Shown: piece by piece, positions 13,969-49,523 of the stretch
Layout of the letters: the number at the start of each line of letters is the position of its first letter
How positions within the stretch are numbered: position 1 is the stretch's first letter
Assembly (NCBI GenBank): GCA_945902075.1
Contig: CAMDMA010000012.1
Span: forward strand, 1 to 64,000
Reading direction: 5' to 3'
Source: Candidatus Kuenenia stuttgartensis
GTDB lineage: Bacteria; Planctomycetota; Phycisphaerae; Phycisphaerales; SM1A02
Length of the DNA stretch: 64,000 bases
Notes under the pieces: generated by a model
The model's input: only the letters and a program-made list of their open reading frames with translations
Databases searched by the model: none
Told to the model about the DNA's origin: nothing
Program-made: the position numbers and the translations under genes

Positions 13969-14111
13969 TGTCTACTCGCTTTCTCTGCGTGACACACGCT
14001 TGAACGATGCGCGCTGCGGAGCGGACGCACTCCGCTCCGCAGCGGCATCGAAACTCTCAGTTTGATGACCGAGACATCACTGCCTCGAGGCGTTTCACGC
14101 CGTAACTAAAC

Positions 14112-19582: not shown

Positions 19583-20475
19583 CTATCGAAGAGTTCCGCG
19601 AGCCCGTGAAAAACACCGCGGCGACCGAGCCGGAGAAATGCGCGCGCGGAATCCTCCATGCGAACGGAGGCCTCAAGCCGGGCGAGGCGGAGCGCCGCGT
19701 CAATCGATTCAACCAGGGGCGAACCTGCGAGCTGCGCGCGGGCGCGGTTCAGTTCGACGTCGAGAAGCGCCAAATCGCGATCCTCGCCGAGTGTGGTTGC
19801 CAGCCGCTTGGCGCGGTTGCGAACGCGTCGGAGCGAGGGTGAAAGCCCCGACTCAAATGGCCGAAGGGTAAGAGCAAGAAATGATGCCTTTTTGCGACAT
19901 TCATGCAGGCGTGCGAGGTCACTCACCTCCAGTGCCTCGCGAAGTTCGACGCGGCAGGACTCGAAAGTTCGACGCATCATCGACTCGACCGCGCGTCGGT
20001 CGATTGGCGCCTCGGCGTCAAGTCGCGTGACTGATTCCATCGCTGCGCGCATCGCCCGGCGCGCGCGTGCAATCGCGCTGTCAGCGAACTGTGAGTCGTC
20101 GCGCCGGTCGGTTTCCGCGAACACAAGTGTTGCAAGCAACACCGTGCGCACCACTCGACGCGGCTCCCCGTCGACGAAACGATCTGAGATCCGCGTGATG
20201 GATCGAATCAAGGCATCACGGTCACGCAATGGTCCAAGGAGTTGATTGGCCTTCGCGGAAAACTCAAGCACGCCGTCAACGAACGCACCATGCTGAGGCG
20301 CGCGACAAAGCGGCGCAAGTGCGCGCACACTCTTCAGTTCACGACGTGCAGTGCGCACCGACTCACGCCGATTTGAGGCGAGCTGACTGTTGCTTGCGAG
20401 CGCTGTCTCAGCGGCCAACATCGACGACCGCACAGCCGCGAGAACGAGTGTTCCCGCATCTTGTCGAGGGTTCAT
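19579..20475 (-). CDS. CHAD domain protein
   Basis: CHAD (conserved histidine alpha-helical domain) proteins bind polyphosphate through basic helices. 298 residues from ATG 20475 (another ATG at 20544 is in frame). The protein is almost entirely helical and arginine-rich. Typical pieces are VRTARRELKSVRALAPL near 40-55, LGPLRDRDALI near 85, LHECRKKASFLALTLRPF near 210 and LGEDRDLALLD near 240, showing the duplicated RxxxKxxR pattern. It lacks a CYTH domain. It is translationally coupled to coaE downstream and divergent from proS. Confidence 0.85.
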   Translation of the reverse strand: MNPRQDAGTLVLAAVRSSMLAAETALASNSQLASNRRESVRTARRELKSVRALAPLCRAPQHGAFVDGVLEFSAKANQLLGPLRDRDALIRSITRISDRFVDGEPRRVVRTVLLATLVFAETDRRDDSQFADSAIARARRAMRAAMESVTRLDAEAPIDRRAVESMMRRTFESCRVELREALEVSDLARLHECRKKASFLALTLRPFESGLSPSLRRVRNRAKRLATTLGEDRDLALLDVELNRARAQLAGSPLVESIDAALRLARLEASVRMEDSARAFLRLGRRGVFHGLAELFDS

Positions 20476-20652
20476 GCTGTCTATGGACGAATCGCTTTCG
20501 GTCACGAACAGGACTGTAGCCGTAGTGCCATGAAATCCCTGCATTCATCGCCGATTTCCGTCGTGTCTGCTACCTTCTCGGGCCTTCGGATTCCGTTCAC
20601 AGCGACCGAGATCCTTTGCGCTCCGCAACAATCCTGCACCATCGAGCCCGTC

Positions 20653-22230
20653 ATGTCGAACCCTAAGCAGCCAGCCGCCTCCGCACCGACGACCGCCATC
20701 ACGCCGACCCGCGAGGAGAACTATGCGGAGTGGTATCAGCAGGTCGTGCGCGCGGCAGACCTCGCAGAAAACAGCGATGTGCGCGGATGCATGGTCATCA
20801 AGCCGTGGGGCTACGCGACGTGGGAAAATGTCCAGCGCGTCCTCGACCGGATGTTCAAGGATACTGGCCACAAGAACGCATACTTCCCGCTGTTTATCCC
20901 GCTTTCCTATCTCGAAAAGGAAGCGGAGCATGTTGAGGGCTTCGCGAAAGAGTGCGCTGTCGTCACCCACCATCGGCTCCAGCCGGGAACCAAAGCGGAC
21001 GGCAAGCCCGGACTTGTTCCGGCGGGCGAGTTGCAGGAACCGCTCGTTGTGCGCCCGACATCGGAGACGATCATCGGTGCGAGTTTCTCGAAATGGGTGC
21101 AGAGTTACCGCGATCTTCCGCTCCTTATCAATCAGTGGGCCAACGTTGTGCGATGGGAGATGCGCACGCGACTTTTCCTGCGCACAACTGAGTTTCTCTG
21201 GCAAGAAGGGCACACCGCCCATGCGACAAGCGAAGAAGCGATGGTCGAGACGCTGAAGATGCTCGAGGTATACGCCGACTTTGCTGAGAACTGGATGGCG
21301 ATGCCTGTCATCAAGGGCGAGAAGACCGAGGGTGAGCGCTTTCCTGGGGCAGTGAACACCTATTGCATCGAGGCGATGATGCAGGATCGAAAAGCGCTGC
21401 AAGCGGGAACATCACATTTCCTCGGTCAGAATTTCGCGCATTCAAGCGACATCAAGTTTAGCGATGCCAACGGCAGCGTTTCCTTTGCTTGGACGACATC
21501 GTGGGGTGTGTCGACGCGGCTCATCGGCGGCATGATCATGACCCACGCGGACGATGATGGCATGGTGCTCCCGCCGCGGCTCGCGCCGGCGCATGTGGTG
21601 ATTATTCCAGTGACCCACAAGCCTGAAACAGCGCAAGCGGTGCACGACTACTGCGTCAAACTCGCCGCCGATCTCCGCACCATCCACTACGCCGGTCGCA
21701 CGATCGATGTTGAGCTTGACGCTCGCGACATCCGTGGTGGCGACAAAGCATGGCAGTGGATCAAGAAGGGCATTCCGCTCCGCGTCGAAGTTGGGCCGCG
21801 CGACATGGAGCAGGACTCGGTGTTCATGGCACGCCGTGACCGCGGTCACAAAGAGAAGGTGTCGGTCAAGCGCGATGAGTTCCTCGCAACCATCGTGCAA
21901 ACGCTTGAAGATATGCAGTCGGGGCTGTTCGCCCGCGCGAAGGCGCACCGCGAAGCCAACACGCAGCGCATAGATTCACGCGCGGAATTCGAAGCATTCT
22001 TCGGTGTGAAAAACGAAGCCGAGAGCGAAGAGACCAGTTCGGGCGGCAGCGTGAAGGGCGGATTCGCTCTCGCCCACTACGCGCCAGATCCAGCTGTTGA
22101 AGATGAACTCAAGGCGAAATTCGCGGTGACCTGCCGCTGCATCCCGGTCGACGGAAACGACGAGCCGGGAACATGCATCTTTAGCGGTAAGCCAAGCTCA
22201 CGCCGCGCCGTGTTCGCGAAGAGTTACTGA
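20653..22230 (+). CDS. proS: Prolyl-tRNA synthetase, archaeal/eukaryotic type
   Basis: Charges tRNA-Pro. 525 residues. Class II motifs are clear: RPTSETIIGASFSKWVQSYRDLP, then WEMRTRLFLRTTEFLWQEGHTAHAT. The anticodon-binding domain follows, and a C-terminal domain with spaced cysteines (CRCIP, GTCIFSG) ends in FAKSY, the terminal tyrosine signature of the short archaeal-type ProRS that lacks the bacterial editing insertion. The ATG at 20653 begins MSNPKQPAASAPTT; longer in-frame starts add residues with no family match. Several bacterial phyla use this type. Confidence 0.95.
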   Translation: MSNPKQPAASAPTTAITPTREENYAEWYQQVVRAADLAENSDVRGCMVIKPWGYATWENVQRVLDRMFKDTGHKNAYFPLFIPLSYLEKEAEHVEGFAKECAVVTHHRLQPGTKADGKPGLVPAGELQEPLVVRPTSETIIGASFSKWVQSYRDLPLLINQWANVVRWEMRTRLFLRTTEFLWQEGHTAHATSEEAMVETLKMLEVYADFAENWMAMPVIKGEKTEGERFPGAVNTYCIEAMMQDRKALQAGTSHFLGQNFAHSSDIKFSDANGSVSFAWTTSWGVSTRLIGGMIMTHADDDGMVLPPRLAPAHVVIIPVTHKPETAQAVHDYCVKLAADLRTIHYAGRTIDVELDARDIRGGDKAWQWIKKGIPLRVEVGPRDMEQDSVFMARRDRGHKEKVSVKRDEFLATIVQTLEDMQSGLFARAKAHREANTQRIDSRAEFEAFFGVKNEAESEETSSGGSVKGGFALAHYAPDPAVEDELKAKFAVTCRCIPVDGNDEPGTCIFSGKPSSRRAVFAKSY

Positions 22231-22245
22231 CGCGCGGGCTGCGAT

Positions 22246-22815
22246 TTACTCAGGCGCAACTTCGGGTGTCGGCGAGGTGGCCGGTGCGCCAACAACTTCC
22301 GTTTGGACTTCTGCTTGCTTGGTCTCAACCTGCGTGACAGGCGCATTTGCGATTGGCGCGGTTGCTGGAATTACCCATCGATACGCAGACTCGACGCGCC
22401 ACGAAAGCATGGGGCCGCCCTTCAGCTTGACGGTCATCAGTTGGTAGACGCCGCGCTCGGGGTAAACAACATCGACGTCAGCCACACCGCCCGAAAGGCG
22501 AAGTTGCTGGACAGAAAAAACCTGTTCATCCCCTGCGGCGATGTCTTTCGACATGGGAGTCGCATTCTCGCCGATGAGCGTTTGCACGCGTGACCAGGTC
22601 GACTGCTCCAACCCTGCAGGGAGATTGAAGACGACCGGCCCACTGAGACCGGTGATGCGATGCGCCTCTTTAATCGCCTTTGCCATGACCTCCGGCCCAG
22701 GCGAAACATTTGGCTTCGAAATCGCGCTTCCCGAAGTCGGCGGATACGTCGAAACCGCGGTGCAAGCGGCAGGAACAACGATCAGGAGCAGAGCGGCAAG
22801 AACGCGGGTCGTCAT
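22246..22815 (-). CDS. Putative lipoprotein of unknown function
   Basis: 189 residues. The N terminus MTTRVLAALLLIVVPAACTAVS is a lipoprotein signal with Cys at about 18 as lipid attachment point. The rest is a single domain (about 45-150) with alternating hydrophobic strands (VFSVQQLRLSGGVADVDVVYP, LMTVKLKGGPMLSWRVES), followed by a Pro/Thr/Val-rich tail. I recognise no family. The same frame remains open upstream to 23778, but that stretch contains a strong hairpin and no match, so the ATG at 22815 is chosen. It converges on proS with about 15 bp between the stops. Confidence 0.75.
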   Translation of the reverse strand: MTTRVLAALLLIVVPAACTAVSTYPPTSGSAISKPNVSPGPEVMAKAIKEAHRITGLSGPVVFNLPAGLEQSTWSRVQTLIGENATPMSKDIAAGDEQVFSVQQLRLSGGVADVDVVYPERGVYQLMTVKLKGGPMLSWRVESAYRWVIPATAPIANAPVTQVETKQAEVQTEVVGAPATSPTPEVAPE

Positions 22816-23389
22816 GACCGCATCGTAACAACCGGGATAAAAACATCGTCGGCGCCTCGGAAATCCGGGGCGCCGACGATGCAAACGTGGAATTCGGTCT
22901 GCGGCGATTCGAGGCGGGAACCTGATCAGCCGCAAGCTCGAGGGGAACACGCGAGCCTTGCCACGCAAGCAAGTCATCATCGTGCGGCACAACATACTGC
23001 CGACCCTTGCTGGCATCACAGATGCCAGAGCTGTCCTGGTTCGCCGGAGTTGGGGGGGAGAAGGGGGCGAACCCTGACACGGGAGAAGAGACACTGGGGG
23101 TCGAGGTTTTGCGCAAGGTTGCCTCCGATTCGCGAATTTCCTTCGTCCGAGCCCCGGCAGCGATTGGGGTGGGCAATGTCGCAGGGACGACGGCGCGAGG
23201 AGCGCGATGTTGGCTGGAGCTTCCACAACAGCAAGGGCGCCGGCGCCAAATCGCATCGCTGGGAAGGCGCTGACTCCATCGTTGTCGCCCACCGTGAAGG
23301 ACGGTGACGCGAGGGAATGAAGTGCACGTTGACGGGTGCCCGTGGGGAACCATGAGAGGGGTCCATTGGGCCAATCTCTGGCGATAACC
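22816..23389. other. Unexplained region between thioesterase and lipoprotein genes
   Basis: About 570 bp between two minus-strand genes. All three minus-strand frames are partly open, but none gives a convincing protein with a stop before the terminator at 22841-22885. A second perfect hairpin (ctggcatc / gatgccag, loop aca) lies near 23010-23028. Candidates are a structured non-coding RNA read leftward, a decayed gene, or a frameshifted short protein. Searches by eye for tmRNA and RNase P hallmarks found none. Confidence 0.5.
22841..22885 (-). terminator. Very strong intrinsic terminator
   Basis: Inverted repeat catcgtcggcgcc / ggcgccgacgatg, extended inward by cgg-aaat-ccg. On the minus strand it is followed by TTTTT. 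No coding sequence is recognised directly upstream on that strand, so whatever transcript it ends is unknown. Confidence 0.85.
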
Positions 23390-23812
23390 TCAAATCGGTG
23401 GCCGTTTACCTGCAGACAAGGCAAGATCGTCCGGCACCGCGCGCGCCCGACCGTCGCGATCAAGACAGGCGAGGGTGGTGCGACCGTCCACCAGCAGGTC
23501 ATCGCCGCGGAAAATCGCGTAGCCGTGCTCAATCTTGACTGGACCAGCGGCGAGCAATTCCGTGCGCACGCGAAGCAGATCGTCGTATCGCGCCGGTCGG
23601 CGAAAGCGAACTTCAAGCCGAACAACCGCGAGAAACACCCCCGACGCCTCCAGCGCGCGGTAGTCGCCGCCCGCTGCGCGCAACATCTCCGTGCGGCCCA
23701 TCTCAAACCAGATCGGGTAGACCGTGTGATGGACAACGCCCATGGGGTCGCACTCGGGGTAGCGGGCGCGAACTTCAATCTCGTGAGAGGGCGGCTGGGT
23801 TGATTCGTTCAT
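23390..23812 (-). CDS. Acyl-CoA thioesterase, YbgC/FadM (4HBT) hot-dog family
   Basis: 140 residues. The hot-dog motif YPECDPMGVVHHTVYPIWFE (about 14-33) carries the catalytic Asp in the D-x-x-G-x-V-x-x region; RFRRPARYDDLLRV and GYAIFRGDDLLVDGRTTLACLD complete the fold. Such enzymes cleave acyl-CoA thioesters in the cytoplasm. Its start lies 19 nt after the mnmE stop, so it is probably the last gene of a yidC-mnmE-thioesterase unit. Chain-length specificity is unknown. Confidence 0.9.
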   Translation of the reverse strand: MNESTQPPSHEIEVRARYPECDPMGVVHHTVYPIWFEMGRTEMLRAAGGDYRALEASGVFLAVVRLEVRFRRPARYDDLLRVRTELLAAGPVKIEHGYAIFRGDDLLVDGRTTLACLDRDGRARAVPDDLALSAGKRPPI

Positions 23813-23831
23813 GGCGTGTCGACTCGAGCGT

Positions 23832-25298
23832 TCACTTTCCGATGCAGAACCGAGAAAAGACAAGTCCGAGGACGTCGTCCGGATGGACAGGGCCGGCGAT
23901 GTCTCCGAGCGCATCGAGGGCGGCGCGTAAGAGGCTCGCGATGAGTTCGAGGTCGCGCATCGACTCGCCGCGCGTATGTGCGCCTGCCACCTGTGTGAAC
24001 GAGTCGTCGGTTGGAAGCGCTTCACGAATCGCGAGGCTGAGCGCGTCCTCGGCCAATACAAGCGACGCGTCATGGCGCGGCAGGATGATCGCGAGTTGGG
24101 CGCGGCGGAGGGCCCGGTCTCTCCGAAGGAGCGCCGCGATGCGCCCGCGAAGTTCGGCAATGCCCGCACCGGTTCGTGCGCTGGTTGAGACAGCGGGCGG
24201 CGGGGGCGCGGAGGCAAGGTCGCACATTGTGTGCACCTCAATGACTTCGCCTGTGATGGCGAGATCGAATTGATCGCTCCGTTCGAGCGAGATGGGTGTT
24301 GCGCTTGGCGCCGTGCAACGCAGCACAATGTCCGCGCGGCGCAGCGCGTCACGCGCCTGACGCTGCATCGATTGCTCGATCTCGCCAACCACTTCTCTAT
24401 CGCCAAACTCGAGACCAGCGAGGTCGACAAGATCCGCTTCAAGTCCAGCGGTGAGCGCCACACGCGCGACGATTGCGTCGCGCGTGGTTCCTGATTGCGG
24501 ACTCGCAACGCTACGCGCTCGGCCAACCAATGCGTTGAACAATGAACTTTTCCCCGCGTTTGGTGGCCCAGCCAGCACGACCAGCGCGACCGCATTCGCG
24601 CGCAGCGAATCGTGCGTCCCACGTAACGCCGCGATACGACCGCGAAGTTCGCGCGCAGCGTCGGCGAAGGCACGGGCATCGATGGTGACGACATCTTCTT
24701 GGTCGGTAAAGTCGATCCCCGCCTCAACGCGTGCGAGCAGTTCGGCGGCGACGCCTACGAGTTCCGCAGCGCGTATGCCGAAGGTGCCGCGCCCGATCTC
24801 CTCAGCGGCGATGAGCTCTGCGTCGTTCGTCGCCGCAATGCGCGCGGCGAGCGACTCCGCCGCATCAACATCGAGTCGTCCAGCAAGATGCGCGCGAAAT
24901 GCAAACTCACCTGGCCGCGCACGACGCGCAGAAAAACCTGCGGTTCGCGCGCTGGCGAGCGCACGATCACAGAGAATTTCGACCAGCGCAGGTGCCCCAA
25001 CGCAAGAGAGTTCAAGCGAGTCCTCGCCAGTGAAACTCGCGGGCCCCTCCATCCAGTAGGCAAGTACTGGATACGAACCATGCAGCGGAAATTCGTGTGT
25101 GCGCGCTTCGTCGACATCACCAAGCCGCACACGCATGCGCGCGACTCCACGCGCGGATGGGATCTCACCAAACATACCACGCGCTGCTGCGCGAACGCCT
25201 GGTCCACTCATGCGCACAAGCGCACGAAGCCCATGACCCGGCGGCGACGCGATCGCAAGAATCGTCTCACGCGGCGCTGTGGCTTCGACCGCGCACAT
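23832..25298 (-). CDS. mnmE: tRNA modification GTPase MnmE (TrmE)
   Basis: With MnmG it modifies U34 of certain tRNAs. 488 residues: N-terminal folate-binding domain (1-120), helical domain, and a G domain (about 215-375) inserted in it, ending with the invariant C-terminal FCIGK. G1 is GPPNAGKSS, G2 GTTRD and G3 DLAG. The G4 position reads HTMCDL instead of NKxD, an unusual variant that may change nucleotide specificity or affinity. It follows yidC by 6 nt, the classical order. Confidence 0.95.
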   Translation of the reverse strand: MCAVEATAPRETILAIASPPGHGLRALVRMSGPGVRAAARGMFGEIPSARGVARMRVRLGDVDEARTHEFPLHGSYPVLAYWMEGPASFTGEDSLELSCVGAPALVEILCDRALASARTAGFSARRARPGEFAFRAHLAGRLDVDAAESLAARIAATNDAELIAAEEIGRGTFGIRAAELVGVAAELLARVEAGIDFTDQEDVVTIDARAFADAARELRGRIAALRGTHDSLRANAVALVVLAGPPNAGKSSLFNALVGRARSVASPQSGTTRDAIVARVALTAGLEADLVDLAGLEFGDREVVGEIEQSMQRQARDALRRADIVLRCTAPSATPISLERSDQFDLAITGEVIEVHTMCDLASAPPPPAVSTSARTGAGIAELRGRIAALLRRDRALRRAQLAIILPRHDASLVLAEDALSLAIREALPTDDSFTQVAGAHTRGESMRDLELIASLLRAALDALGDIAGPVHPDDVLGLVFSRFCIGK

Positions 25299-25304
25299 CG
25301 TTGG

Positions 25305-27491
25305 TTAGCGATCCTTCTTTGGATCCTTGAACTTCTTCTTCGCGCCCCCCTGCGACTGCTGTGAGCGCGCAAGCGCCTTCTCGTAAAGGCGCCCAAGGAA
25401 GTCCTGCTTCTTCTTACCTGCCTCCGGCTTCGCTGTGAAGTCCATTGCATCAACTTGCTTCTTGATGATGCGCCCCTCGACGATGCCGATGCACGTCGAA
25501 GTGAGGATGTACAGCGTGAGGCCGCTCGGCGCGGCATATGTCATCACCGGGAACATGATGACCATCATCCACTTCATCATCTTCTGCTGCGAAATCTGGT
25601 CATCGGTCATATTGGCTGCCATCGGTGGCGCCATGTACTGCTGCTGAACCCAAAACACGATGCCCATCAGTACGGGCAACAAGTTGATTGAAGTAACGCT
25701 GAAGAAGTACAAGTTGAGTGGTGTGCCGAATACGAAGAATCGATCGGGCTGCGCGAGGTCGGCAAGGAAACTCCACCCACCGAAGTTTTGGAAGATCCCA
25801 AAGAATGCGGGCTGTTGGCGCAGTTCAAACGCAAAGAACAGCACTGCGTAGAGCGCCATCCAGATTGGCATCTGCGCGAATGTTGGCAACATGCCGCCAA
25901 CGCATCCTGCTGGGCTCACACCGCGTTCGCGGAACATGCGCATCTGCTCTTGCTGCATGCGCGCTGGATCGTCCTTGAACTTCTTCTGCAGCGAATCGAG
26001 TTCGGGCTTCATCGCCGTCATCGCGCGCGAGAAGCGCTGCATTGAGATTTGTGACTTCTTTTGTACCGGGTGCAAGACGAATCGCACAACGATGACGAGC
26101 GCGATGATTGCGAGGCCCCAGTCGAAGACCACATAGTCGTGGAGGAACGAGAGGAACCACAGCATGCCATCGGCAAGCCACGCAAAGGTGCACCACGAGC
26201 AACACCCACTCATCAAGTAGACGATGAGATCGCCCATATTGAGTGCGGAGTACGGCTCAAGGCCATCGAGGATCTTCGGATCGAGTGGGCCTGCGAAGAT
26301 GCCGATATCGAGCGTGGTTGATGCGCCCGCGGCCACATCGACGACCGGACTCCAGAGCGTGGTGAAAATGCGTTCGTCGAAACCAGTGAGCCCATTGGAA
26401 AATGCGCGGACTTCAGCGATGCTCAAAAGTTGACGCGAGGGGGACGTCGGCGGCGCATACGGCGCGTGCACAGCAAGCGCGAAGTAGCGGTCGGTGCTGC
26501 CGAACCACGAAAGCGCATACCGACCTTCGGTGGCCACGGTGTTCGGCCATACAAGCGGATTCTGCGCTGCGATTTGCTTCGCAAAGTCGGCGCGCTCGTA
26601 GTACTGGCCATTGGCACTGACAAACGACTGCGAGGGATCGCGCTCGGGTGGATAGAGGTAACCGAAGTGAAATCGGCGAACTTCCATCATCGCGACCGGA
26701 TCATGTGGCGGATCGCCTGGGCCGTAGAGAAGGATGCGCGCCTTCATCGACGCGTCGGTGAGGTTGATGATGCGCTGTTGGAGCGCGAGGTCGTAGGCCG
26801 TCGCACCGGCAACGAAGGATCGTTCGACGCGCGCGATGGCGCGGCCTGTGTCGTCAACGATCTCGGTGACGAACGCGCCTGGCGCGGTTTCGGCCCAGAC
26901 TGCGCCGAAGACATCGACCTTTGCGCCGTTGATCTGCACTTCACGCGCTGCGAAGACTGGAATCGTGATGTTGCCGAATGGCGGCGCGTCGGCGAAGACG
27001 TACCGGAGGGAATCGGATGGCAACGCTGCAGGATCGTTCGCCGCGCGCGCACGCTTCGCCTGATCCGCTGCATCGACGGTGCCCCAGAAATCAGCAGCAA
27101 CGATCCGGGTAATACCCGCGGCGTTTCCGGCGAAGGTGATTTCGAAGGGAGCAATGCTTGGATCCAATGATCCAAGCTTGGTTGGGACGGCGGGCGCGTT
27201 CATTCCGACTGGAACGCGCGCTGAGAGTTTCGCGTCGGAGGTCGTGCTCGGACTGGTCGTGCCAGCTTTGGAAGCAGCCGTGTTGGAAGCAGCAGATTCC
27301 GCGCTCGACGTCTCAGTTGTGGTTTCAACGGTCGAAACCTTCGACGCATCGATCACAGAATCGGATTGGCCAGCCGCGATGGGAGTCTCGTTGACAGGAC
27401 CACGCGCCCCACGGGCGACGAGGAACCCGACACCGACAACCACTGCGGCAAGGACGGAGGTGATGAGATAACGCTTCAGAAATGGAGACAT
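25305..27491 (-). CDS. yidC: Membrane protein insertase YidC
   Basis: 728 residues: an N-terminal membrane anchor (about 5-25), a low-complexity linker rich in S, T and A, a large periplasmic beta domain (about 95-390), then the OxaI core with hydrophobic segments (about 430-690). Core motifs include HPVQKKSQISMQRF, the cytoplasmic loop MKPELDSLQKKFKDD and the GGMLPTFAQMPIW helix. Just before the first core helix is an unusual cysteine cluster GCCSWC. The ATG at 27491 begins MSPFLKRYL; the GC-rich upstream extension to 27548 is unlikely. It is the first gene of a unit with mnmE. Confidence 0.93.
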   Translation of the reverse strand: MSPFLKRYLITSVLAAVVVGVGFLVARGARGPVNETPIAAGQSDSVIDASKVSTVETTTETSSAESAASNTAASKAGTTSPSTTSDAKLSARVPVGMNAPAVPTKLGSLDPSIAPFEITFAGNAAGITRIVAADFWGTVDAADQAKRARAANDPAALPSDSLRYVFADAPPFGNITIPVFAAREVQINGAKVDVFGAVWAETAPGAFVTEIVDDTGRAIARVERSFVAGATAYDLALQQRIINLTDASMKARILLYGPGDPPHDPVAMMEVRRFHFGYLYPPERDPSQSFVSANGQYYERADFAKQIAAQNPLVWPNTVATEGRYALSWFGSTDRYFALAVHAPYAPPTSPSRQLLSIAEVRAFSNGLTGFDERIFTTLWSPVVDVAAGASTTLDIGIFAGPLDPKILDGLEPYSALNMGDLIVYLMSGCCSWCTFAWLADGMLWFLSFLHDYVVFDWGLAIIALVIVVRFVLHPVQKKSQISMQRFSRAMTAMKPELDSLQKKFKDDPARMQQEQMRMFRERGVSPAGCVGGMLPTFAQMPIWMALYAVLFFAFELRQQPAFFGIFQNFGGWSFLADLAQPDRFFVFGTPLNLYFFSVTSINLLPVLMGIVFWVQQQYMAPPMAANMTDDQISQQKMMKWMMVIMFPVMTYAAPSGLTLYILTSTCIGIVEGRIIKKQVDAMDFTAKPEAGKKKQDFLGRLYEKALARSQQSQGGAKKKFKDPKKDR

Positions 27492-48001: not shown

Positions 48002-49300
48002 TCAATCCGCGAAGGCAACGCGGAGTGCGTCGTAAAACGTCACCGGCCATGTTGCGCGCACGATCGCGCGAAACAGTGTTTCATCAGGGAGAAACACTGC
48101 GTTGATCGGTACTGGTGCGCCGTTCGGGAAGTACGGCGCTGATGATCCAGACGAACGGTCGGGTTTGAGGTAGCTCCATCCTGAGGGTAAAAGTCGAGTG
48201 CGTGGTAAGGGCGACTCGTCCTCATCATTCCAATCGATGGTCGAACCCACGCCCGTCGCCCGACCTACGACAATCGCCGCCGCGCCACGATGGGCGATGA
48301 ACATCGCGTGCATGAAACTCGTTGGATTCGGCGCGATTTCGACAGCGATCGGCATACTCGCCTCGCAGAACGATGGGAGTTCACATCGCCAAATCGTCGG
48401 CACAACACCCCCTGATTGCATGCGCTCGATACGCGCCAACGCGCCGCCAACTTGGTCATGCGTAGGGGTGCGGATGCGCCTCGCGCGAACGCACACCGTC
48501 TCGTTGAAGCCAGAATTCCATACGCGCGCCGCTGCGACCTGCGCTGCACCGGGTATCTCGGTCGGAACGCATACGATGAGATCTCCACGATGCCAATGCA
48601 GTACAGGCGGTGGAGTTTCAGGTCGGACATCGATGCGACGCAAAAGTGACCCTTGTGCGATCGAGATCGCTCGTTCACGCCACGCTTCACGCTCGTACGC
48701 AGAGCTCGAACATGTGGACGCGAGCGCCTGCAAATCCTGCTCGTTGACCGCCGCGCGTGCCGCACGAAAAAGGGGTGCAAGTTCCGTCCCGAATTGATCG
48801 GGTGCAAGGAGAAACACTCGGTCGACATGGCCGCCGTTTGGTGGATCATTGGGAAATGGTGCCGCGGCACTCCCTCCCCCACATGGATACACATCCGCCG
48901 CAAACGGCAGTCTCGAATCGATTCGGTCGAGTTCCATCACGCACACTCCTTCGATCGCGTGCAAGCACGCGCTGGTGGGCGCATCCCGAGCGACGCGCAC
49001 GCCGCCCGATCGGGGCAAGGCGACAGCGCTCGCGTTCGCGAGGTTGACGGCGCGTTTCCCGCGCGCCGCCCGCATCGATTTGGCACCTTGCCTCGCGGCC
49101 GGTTGCCGGAGCGCACGCCGTATTGCTCGGCGATGCGCATCACTCGGGATGCACTCTGGTTGTCGCGATACTCCCGGCCGACGCTCCATGCGACGGAGAA
49201 ACCGTTCGAATCGCATCAGCATCAAGAGCGTGTGCAGCGTTTGCTGCTGAATCCTCGATTGTGCCTGATTTGGCTGCGAACAGCGTGTTTCAGGCCGCAT
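48002..49300 (-). CDS. Unrecognised protein, 432 residues
   Basis: I do not recognise the family. The first 110 residues are very basic (RFERFLRRMERR, HRRAIRRALRQPAARQ), which could mean nucleic-acid binding or a wrongly extended start; an ATG at about 48938 (MELDRIDSRLPFAAD) would give a 312-residue protein. The rest is a mixed alpha/beta domain with ERAISIAQGSLLRRIDVRPE, DLIVCVPTEIPGAAQVAAAR and a hydrophobic C-terminal segment SFMHAMFIAHRGAAAIVVGR. No signal peptide. It lies 116 bp upstream of the 46857-47885 gene in the same direction. Codon bias is less marked than in neighbouring housekeeping genes. Confidence 0.6.
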   Translation of the reverse strand: MRPETRCSQPNQAQSRIQQQTLHTLLMLMRFERFLRRMERRPGVSRQPECIPSDAHRRAIRRALRQPAARQGAKSMRAARGKRAVNLANASAVALPRSGGVRVARDAPTSACLHAIEGVCVMELDRIDSRLPFAADVYPCGGGSAAAPFPNDPPNGGHVDRVFLLAPDQFGTELAPLFRAARAAVNEQDLQALASTCSSSAYEREAWRERAISIAQGSLLRRIDVRPETPPPVLHWHRGDLIVCVPTEIPGAAQVAAARVWNSGFNETVCVRARRIRTPTHDQVGGALARIERMQSGGVVPTIWRCELPSFCEASMPIAVEIAPNPTSFMHAMFIAHRGAAAIVVGRATGVGSTIDWNDEDESPLPRTRLLPSGWSYLKPDRSSGSSAPYFPNGAPVPINAVFLPDETLFRAIVRATWPVTFYDALRVAFAD

Positions 49301-49523
49301 CGTGATGGCACCGTGGTCGGATAAAGACTCGGTTGCCGAGTGGATGACTCCACTGCTCGGGATGCTGAACCATGAACTATAAACCTTGTTCGCGGTTGAT
49401 GCCAATTATTCGTTGGCAATTTTTCGACTTCAGTGAATGCAAGATGGAGCCGCGCACGCGCGAATCGATGTCAGTGATCAAGGAGAATTGCGTAGATGCG
49501 TGGGAAACGGTCGATCCGGTAGT

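Follow-up and report, generated by a model that had tools for sequence, protein, structure and literature searches.

A conserved structured RNA ending in a terminator beside a thioesterase gene in one planctomycete genus, and its candidate role as a trans-acting regulator

Results

A conserved RNA between a thioesterase gene and a lipoprotein-like gene

The region from 22839 to 23117 on the minus strand of the window (the whole stretch of 64 kb that was analyzed, taken from a genome of 3.3 Mb in 70 contigs) almost certainly specifies a noncoding RNA, about 280 nt long, that is conserved and structured and has a terminator at its end; a transcript is predicted from the sequence. The T-run sets the 3′ end of the RNA, and the 5′ end at 23117 is approximate. 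The earlier note on this DNA had proposed an unannotated structured RNA, a guess that is now strongly supported by conservation, covariation, and the terminator. The extent it gave, 22816–23389, has to be narrowed: the conserved RNA does lie inside, but it is shorter, running from about 23117 to 22839 and not up to 23389.

On the right-hand flank, the genes of YidC, MnmE, and a YbgC/FadM-type thioesterase are all directed leftward, and a spacer of about 270 nt separates the stop of the thioesterase gene at 23390 from the RNA. On the other side, the T-run is followed after 23 nt by the ATG of a lipoprotein-like ORF (22246–22815), which is also leftward, converges with ProS, and had no match in Pfam or NCBIfam. 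The parts of the RNA and its two neighbors are listed in Table 1.

Table 1. Positions of the conserved RNA, its predicted parts, and the adjoining genes in the window
Feature	Position	Strand	Basis
Whole conserved RNA	22839–23117	−	DNA conserved next to the thioesterase gene in ten further genomes of the same genus; alignments
5′ motif GCGCAAA (GCGCAGA in the other ten genomes), probably close to the 5′ end	23108–23114	−	Alignment not anchored on the motif
CTCTTCTC element, nearly invariant	23083–23090	−	Alignment
P2, 5′ arm	23066–23078	−	Double-sided changes in 6/12 P2 pairs (MAFFT)
P2 loop, unpaired, pyrimidine-rich, G-free here (CCCTTCTCCCCCCCAACTCC)	23046–23065	−	Comparison of 11 loops
P2, 3′ arm	23033–23045	−	Double-sided changes, P2 MAFFT alignment
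P3 hairpin (second hairpin of the earlier note)	23010–23028	−	Perfect stem; hand alignment
P4, 5′ arm AGGG	23004–23007	−	Hand and MAFFT alignments
P5 hairpin	22985–23002	−	Double-sided changes in 5/5 pairs
P6, conserved loop TTGCGTG (22962–22968)	22949–22983	−	Double-sided changes in 4/6 inner pairs
P4, 3′ arm CCCT, predicted to close the multiloop over P5 and P6	22941–22944	−	Hand and MAFFT alignments
P7, outer stem TTGCGG/CCGCAG (nearly) invariant	22899–22935	−	2/3 apical pairs with double-sided changes
17-nt strand ACCGAATTCCACGTTTG, most conserved unpaired stretch, nearly invariant	22882–22898	−	Alignments
Terminator hairpin	22844–22881	−	Stem count; pair variation in alignment
T-run TTTTTAT	22837–22843	−	Sequence
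YbgC/FadM-type acyl-CoA thioesterase, upstream neighbor	23390–23812	−	TIGR00051, 74.8 bits (cut-off 68.7)
Lipoprotein-like ORF, downstream neighbor	22246–22815	−	N-terminus read as lipoprotein

The terminator

The hairpin at the 3′ end consists of a perfect outer stem of 13 bp and a small inner stem, and reads, in minus-strand order, CATCGTCGGCGCC-(C CGG ATTT CCG A)-GGCGCCGACGATG followed by TTTTTATCC. When perfect 13-bp stems with loops of 3–14 nt were counted over the whole 64-kb window, two places were found, at 14012–14044 and 22844–22881, and a T-run stands only behind the latter, on the minus strand only; three dinucleotide shuffles of the window contained 0, 0, and 0 such stems. The strong terminator claimed in the earlier note is thus the sole perfect 13-bp stem with a T-run in 64 kb, and the second perfect hairpin that it had seen inside the region, CTGGCATC/GATGCCAG, is also there. 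A simple terminator scan of 20000–26000, which accepts only uninterrupted stems and loops no larger than 8, did not list 22844–22881. The hairpin with its T-run is present at the 3′ end of all 11 homologues, and one of its stem pairs is T-A in five genomes and C-G in the other six. A similar terminator found in the same genome (C28:18181) stands behind a gene read as rpmA and was regarded as unrelated.

Distribution of the RNA

A search of 61 genomes with the 575-nt stretch (E 0.001, at most 10 candidates scored per genome) gave matches in 11, namely the genome of the window and ten others of the same genus, and none elsewhere; the RNA is therefore present in 11 of the 16 genomes of that genus. 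The match extends over about 250 nt with 72–79% identity in four relatives and over the 3′ 70–133 nt with 82–96% identity in six, and the neighboring MnmE is only about 51–57% identical in the same genomes. Every copy adjoins the thioesterase gene, on its 3′ side and on the same strand.

A covariance model was built from the 3′ 130 nt of these 11 sequences, which it matches by construction with scores of 92–135 bits, and its use added no member. Under strict filters and an E of 0.01, the sole extra match in 181 genomes of the family scored 25.7 bits and was attributed to chance, as it lies in an ORF of G130 interpreted as an MFS-type transporter. With laxer settings, 26 genomes were searched, the five non-carriers of the same genus among them; nothing exceeded 25.4 bits, a score that belongs to a match inside a long coding ORF of G004 and was likewise put down to chance, and seven other places scored 17–20 bits. 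The next best score among 20 loci outside the carriers was 14.4 bits, and the best among nine loci that carry the tail motif or a close variant was 16.1 bits. A pattern scan hit 13 loci in wider genome contigs, ten of them in known carriers and three, taken as chance matches, in other phyla, and 0 loci in viral contigs.

Among the non-carriers of the genus, G003 (97% complete) and G004 (88%) have the lipoprotein gene directly behind the thioesterase gene, with no RNA between them, and the other three, which are 78–82% complete, gave no thioesterase match. In a tree of thioesterase and MnmE from 19 genomes, from which six of 25 genomes were left out because they had no MnmE match in the locus, the carriers are separated from every other genome with a support of 0.92, and G003 and G004 form a pair (0.87) adjacent to them. 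Such a spread would fit one gain of the RNA, or its loss in G003 and G004.

Covariation and the predicted fold

The compensatory changes that the earlier note had suggested looking for in relatives were observed. RNAalifold, applied to a MAFFT alignment of the 3′ part, gave 31 pairs, 15 of which carry double-sided compensatory changes, whereas shuffled alignments have 7.5 ± 1.5 such pairs; the cells that pair amount to 93.8% (83.7 ± 1.1 in shuffles) and the covariation score is 0.375 (0.190 ± 0.018), and none of these three values was reached by any of 500 shuffles. The count of further pair types, one of the five covariation measures and a weaker one, was 31 against 27.7 and was reached by 27 of the 500. 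In slid controls, over which the counted structure has an advantage since it was derived from the same alignment, 39–51% of cells pair and one to five pairs are double-sided. Misalignment is visible in the rows of G015 and G012, and a looser count of double-sided pairs gave 16 with all rows and 13 of 31 without these two. When P2 was aligned apart by MAFFT, half of its 12 pairs were double-sided. In a hand alignment, made to fit the structure and biased in its favor, 32 of 64 pairs are double-sided and 480 of 533 cells are paired.

The fold energy of the whole 575-nt stretch corresponds to a z of −3.15, largely contributed by the terminator. For the RNA without the terminator, z is −1.6 in this genome and ranges from −0.7 to −4.9 over the 11 homologues (60 shuffles each), and because these values are modest in several homologues, the case for a structure is made by covariation, not by energy.

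The predicted fold that is supported by comparison comprises P2 with its long pyrimidine loop, P3, a multiloop containing P5 and P6, P7, the 17-nt strand, and the terminator. Support for P3 comes from the structure-fitted hand alignment, where up to five standard pair types are seen per position; the separate MAFFT alignment of P2 did not recover this hairpin. P4, the AGGG/CCCT helix that probably closes the multiloop, is the weakest: on the hand alignment 42 of 44 cells pair and none of the four pairs is double-sided, and on the MAFFT alignment three of five pairs show double-sided changes, partly via a misplaced row. The outer stem of P7 hardly varies and is therefore neither supported nor refuted by covariation. 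The CGTG of the P6 loop is kept in 11/11 sequences on the hand alignment and stands in register in 10/11 on the MAFFT alignment. It could form a pseudoknot with the CACG contained in the 17-nt strand; 95.5% of the cells pair in this way on the MAFFT alignment, the exception being a misaligned row, and the two motifs never vary.

Absence of a conserved protein

The earlier note had stated that the 500 bp before the terminator hold no clear protein and had offered a short, frameshifted secreted protein as a second guess. The former statement is correct, since two frames of the region had no Pfam match and the best coding-like frame, 23140–23397, had no credible relative, its relatives reaching at best an E of 0.005 on contigs other than that of the RNA locus. 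The second guess, even when widened to a degraded gene, is extremely improbable. Codon scores on the minus strand look gene-like at 23160–23369 (0.10–0.36) and are weak at 22860–23069 (0.00–0.18), but the distance from the 5′ motif to the T-run, 278–325 nt in the homologues, takes all remainders modulo three, and every reading frame is interrupted in some homologues and open by chance in others, with stops in differing frames. The compensatory changes in the stems also speak against a protein gene, and no conserved protein was found in place across the region in the relatives. A two-frame protein suggested by the codon-usage scan was rejected on the same grounds, its frames being broken in homologues and no relative being found in place.

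Relation to the adjoining genes

The RNA lies 5′ of the lipoprotein gene in 10 of the 11 carriers, and the short distance from its T-run to the ATG would suit a cis-acting leader, such as a riboswitch or an attenuator, whose terminator controls that gene. This arrangement is, however, not constant. In G015, the RNA (92 bits) is followed by a convergent ORF of 361 aa and, as judged by reading the sequence and its ORFs, by no lipoprotein gene, so the RNA is not always upstream of the gene, while G003 and G004 carry the lipoprotein gene without the RNA. In addition, a −10-like TACGAT stands at 22822–22827 on the minus strand, just before the lipoprotein ATG, and a TANNNT box was read by eye at this position in all 12 genomes inspected (ten carriers, G003, and G004), after the terminator where the RNA is present. 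The box suggests that the lipoprotein gene probably has its own start and perhaps a leaderless mRNA. A leader function for the RNA is thus very unlikely, and its occurrence in G015 argues for a free-standing RNA.

Another possibility is that the RNA belongs to a yidC-mnmE-thioesterase transcript as its structured 3′ untranslated region and terminator; it would then protect or end that transcript and have no separate function. Its constant position behind the thioesterase gene, on the same strand in 11/11 genomes, agrees with this, as does the lack of a clear promoter: no sigma-70-like promoter was found within 20000–26000, and no clear box precedes the GCGCA in the homologues, where the strongest columns are AA at −16/−15. 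The conserved unpaired motifs and the loop, however, exceed the needs of a terminator, and the thioesterase genes of G003 and G004 manage without the RNA, which makes this explanation unlikely, if less so than a leader. The RNA resembles the class of 3′ UTR-derived sRNAs in lying behind a coding operon and ending in a terminator, but there is no evidence of processing here, and a long spacer separates it from the thioesterase stop.

Discussion

The role of the RNA is most readily sought in the P2 loop. Over the 11 homologues, this loop is 20–27 nt long, consists of C and T at 77–100%, contains a single G in total, and carries CTCC in every case, and it is kept although its closing stem changes in sequence. 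An open, CU-rich loop is what would be expected of a regulator that base-pairs with purine-rich sites. The RNA of about 280 nt would be made as its own transcript ending at the intrinsic terminator; its stems would hold the almost G-free loop open, and the loop, together with the CTCTTCTC element, would pair with purine-rich stretches of mRNAs, as has been proposed for sRNAs with C-rich loops, and thereby regulate them in trans. We consider it about an even chance that the RNA is a free-standing candidate regulator acting through its P2 loop in this manner.

The searches for targets bear on this estimate. The perfect complement of an 11-nt loop sequence, the loop form of six of the eight genomes searched, occurs at five places outside the RNA itself, against two for the reversed control. 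Two of the five, in G010 and G011, are the same place, and within this set of eight none was observed at a conserved gene start, with ORFs listed at one of the five places. The complement of the 3′ strand gave 14 non-self matches in 11 genomes, three of which represent one terminator locus; one further place in G011 recurs, with a mismatch, in the closely related G001, and no target shared more widely was found in the 11 genomes. Moreover, a Shine-Dalgarno-like core precedes 13 of the 49 genes of the window as called by a rough gene predictor, so that the blocking of ribosome-binding sites would reach few genes, which counts against such a mechanism. The scarcity of these cores and the lack of a conserved target are the reasons for which we hold the trans-acting reading no higher.

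The failure to find an mRNA target would, on the other hand, agree with a protein-bound structural RNA, 6S-like or the scaffold of some other ribonucleoprotein, in which the loop motifs and the 17-nt strand contact protein instead of mRNAs. The complex multi-helix fold also points in this direction, as do several unpaired motifs that vary little or not at all (GCGCAGA, CGTG, and GAATTCCACGTTTG). The region, however, had no Rfam family at the gathering score, and both the tmRNA and a weak 6S candidate of the genome lie elsewhere; moreover, the restriction of the RNA to one part of one genus indicates that it is not a universal ribonucleoprotein. We therefore view a structural role as a tentative alternative, clearly less probable than regulation in trans. 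6S RNA (RF00013) is a stand-alone bacterial RNA that folds into one long rod interrupted by a central bubble; the RNA described here would similarly stand alone, but is multi-branched. No 6S match was obtained in the region at an E of up to 10. The only 6S candidate of the genome, G000:C13:35224–35351 (−), lies on a different contig and scores 29 bits against a cut-off of 46.4, and that locus had nothing at the Rfam gathering level.

Against Rfam 15 the region was searched with covariance models, as the earlier note had advised, and no family exceeded the gathering cut-off; at an E of up to 10 there were seven sub-threshold matches, all overlapping the terminator, the best with an E of 0.053. 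Nothing on the RNA at 22839–23117 was found in the literature searched. The family is thus new relative to Rfam 15 and that literature, while its broad kind, a structured sRNA ending in a terminator, is known. sRNAs of the 6C or B11 type are small molecules of less than about 100 nt that carry a pair of short C loops. The RNA shares with these actinobacterial molecules the exposure of a C-rich loop, conserved as unpaired in 11/11 sequences here, but differs in its length of about 280 nt, its single CU loop of 20–27 nt, and its several further helices. For B11 of Mycobacterium abscessus, binding of its two C-rich loops to a run of six G residues in a 5′ UTR has been proposed, and mutants of the loops were tested (PMC10470900).

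A table in a 2022 review (PMC9029176) records 8 sRNAs for the whole PVC group, compared with 345 for Proteobacteria. Judged by that table, few sRNAs are recorded for planctomycetes, and an RNA that is supported by covariation and lies outside Rfam 15 adds one. Its occurrence in part of one genus might allow the origin of a complex RNA to be placed, and it offers an entry point to the study of RNA regulation in bacteria whose use of Shine-Dalgarno sites seems sparing, as far as the rough predictor tells. A bolder interpretation would make it a new class of structured RNA, with a single origin in one planctomycete genus, a pseudoknot between the P6 loop and the 3′ strand, a reusable tail module, and a mechanism unlike that of known sRNAs; we think it rather unlikely that all of this holds.

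The tail itself recurs. In G001, G005, and G010, a separate locus has AATTCCACGTTTGCA or ATTTCCACGTTTGCA immediately in front of another terminator hairpin. These second loci (L085 on the minus strand, L096 at 1501 on the minus strand, and L099 at 260 on the plus strand, belonging to G001, G010, and G005, respectively) show the tail A[AT]TTCCACGTTTGCA followed by a different terminator hairpin and a T-run, and BLAST at an E of 1 detected nothing else in common upstream of them. The 3′ strand and terminator may therefore represent a shared 3′ module. Palindromes resembling REP elements are repeated between genes in L096 (about 1520–1720) and in L085, and share GAGCGGGCACCTGAAGC and CGCGAGCGCTCAAA. 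Elsewhere in the window, a SAM-I/IV riboswitch was recognized at 49256–49370 on the minus strand (45.1 bits against the Rfam gathering cut-off of 41.1), upstream of a predicted leftward ORF at 48002–49075.
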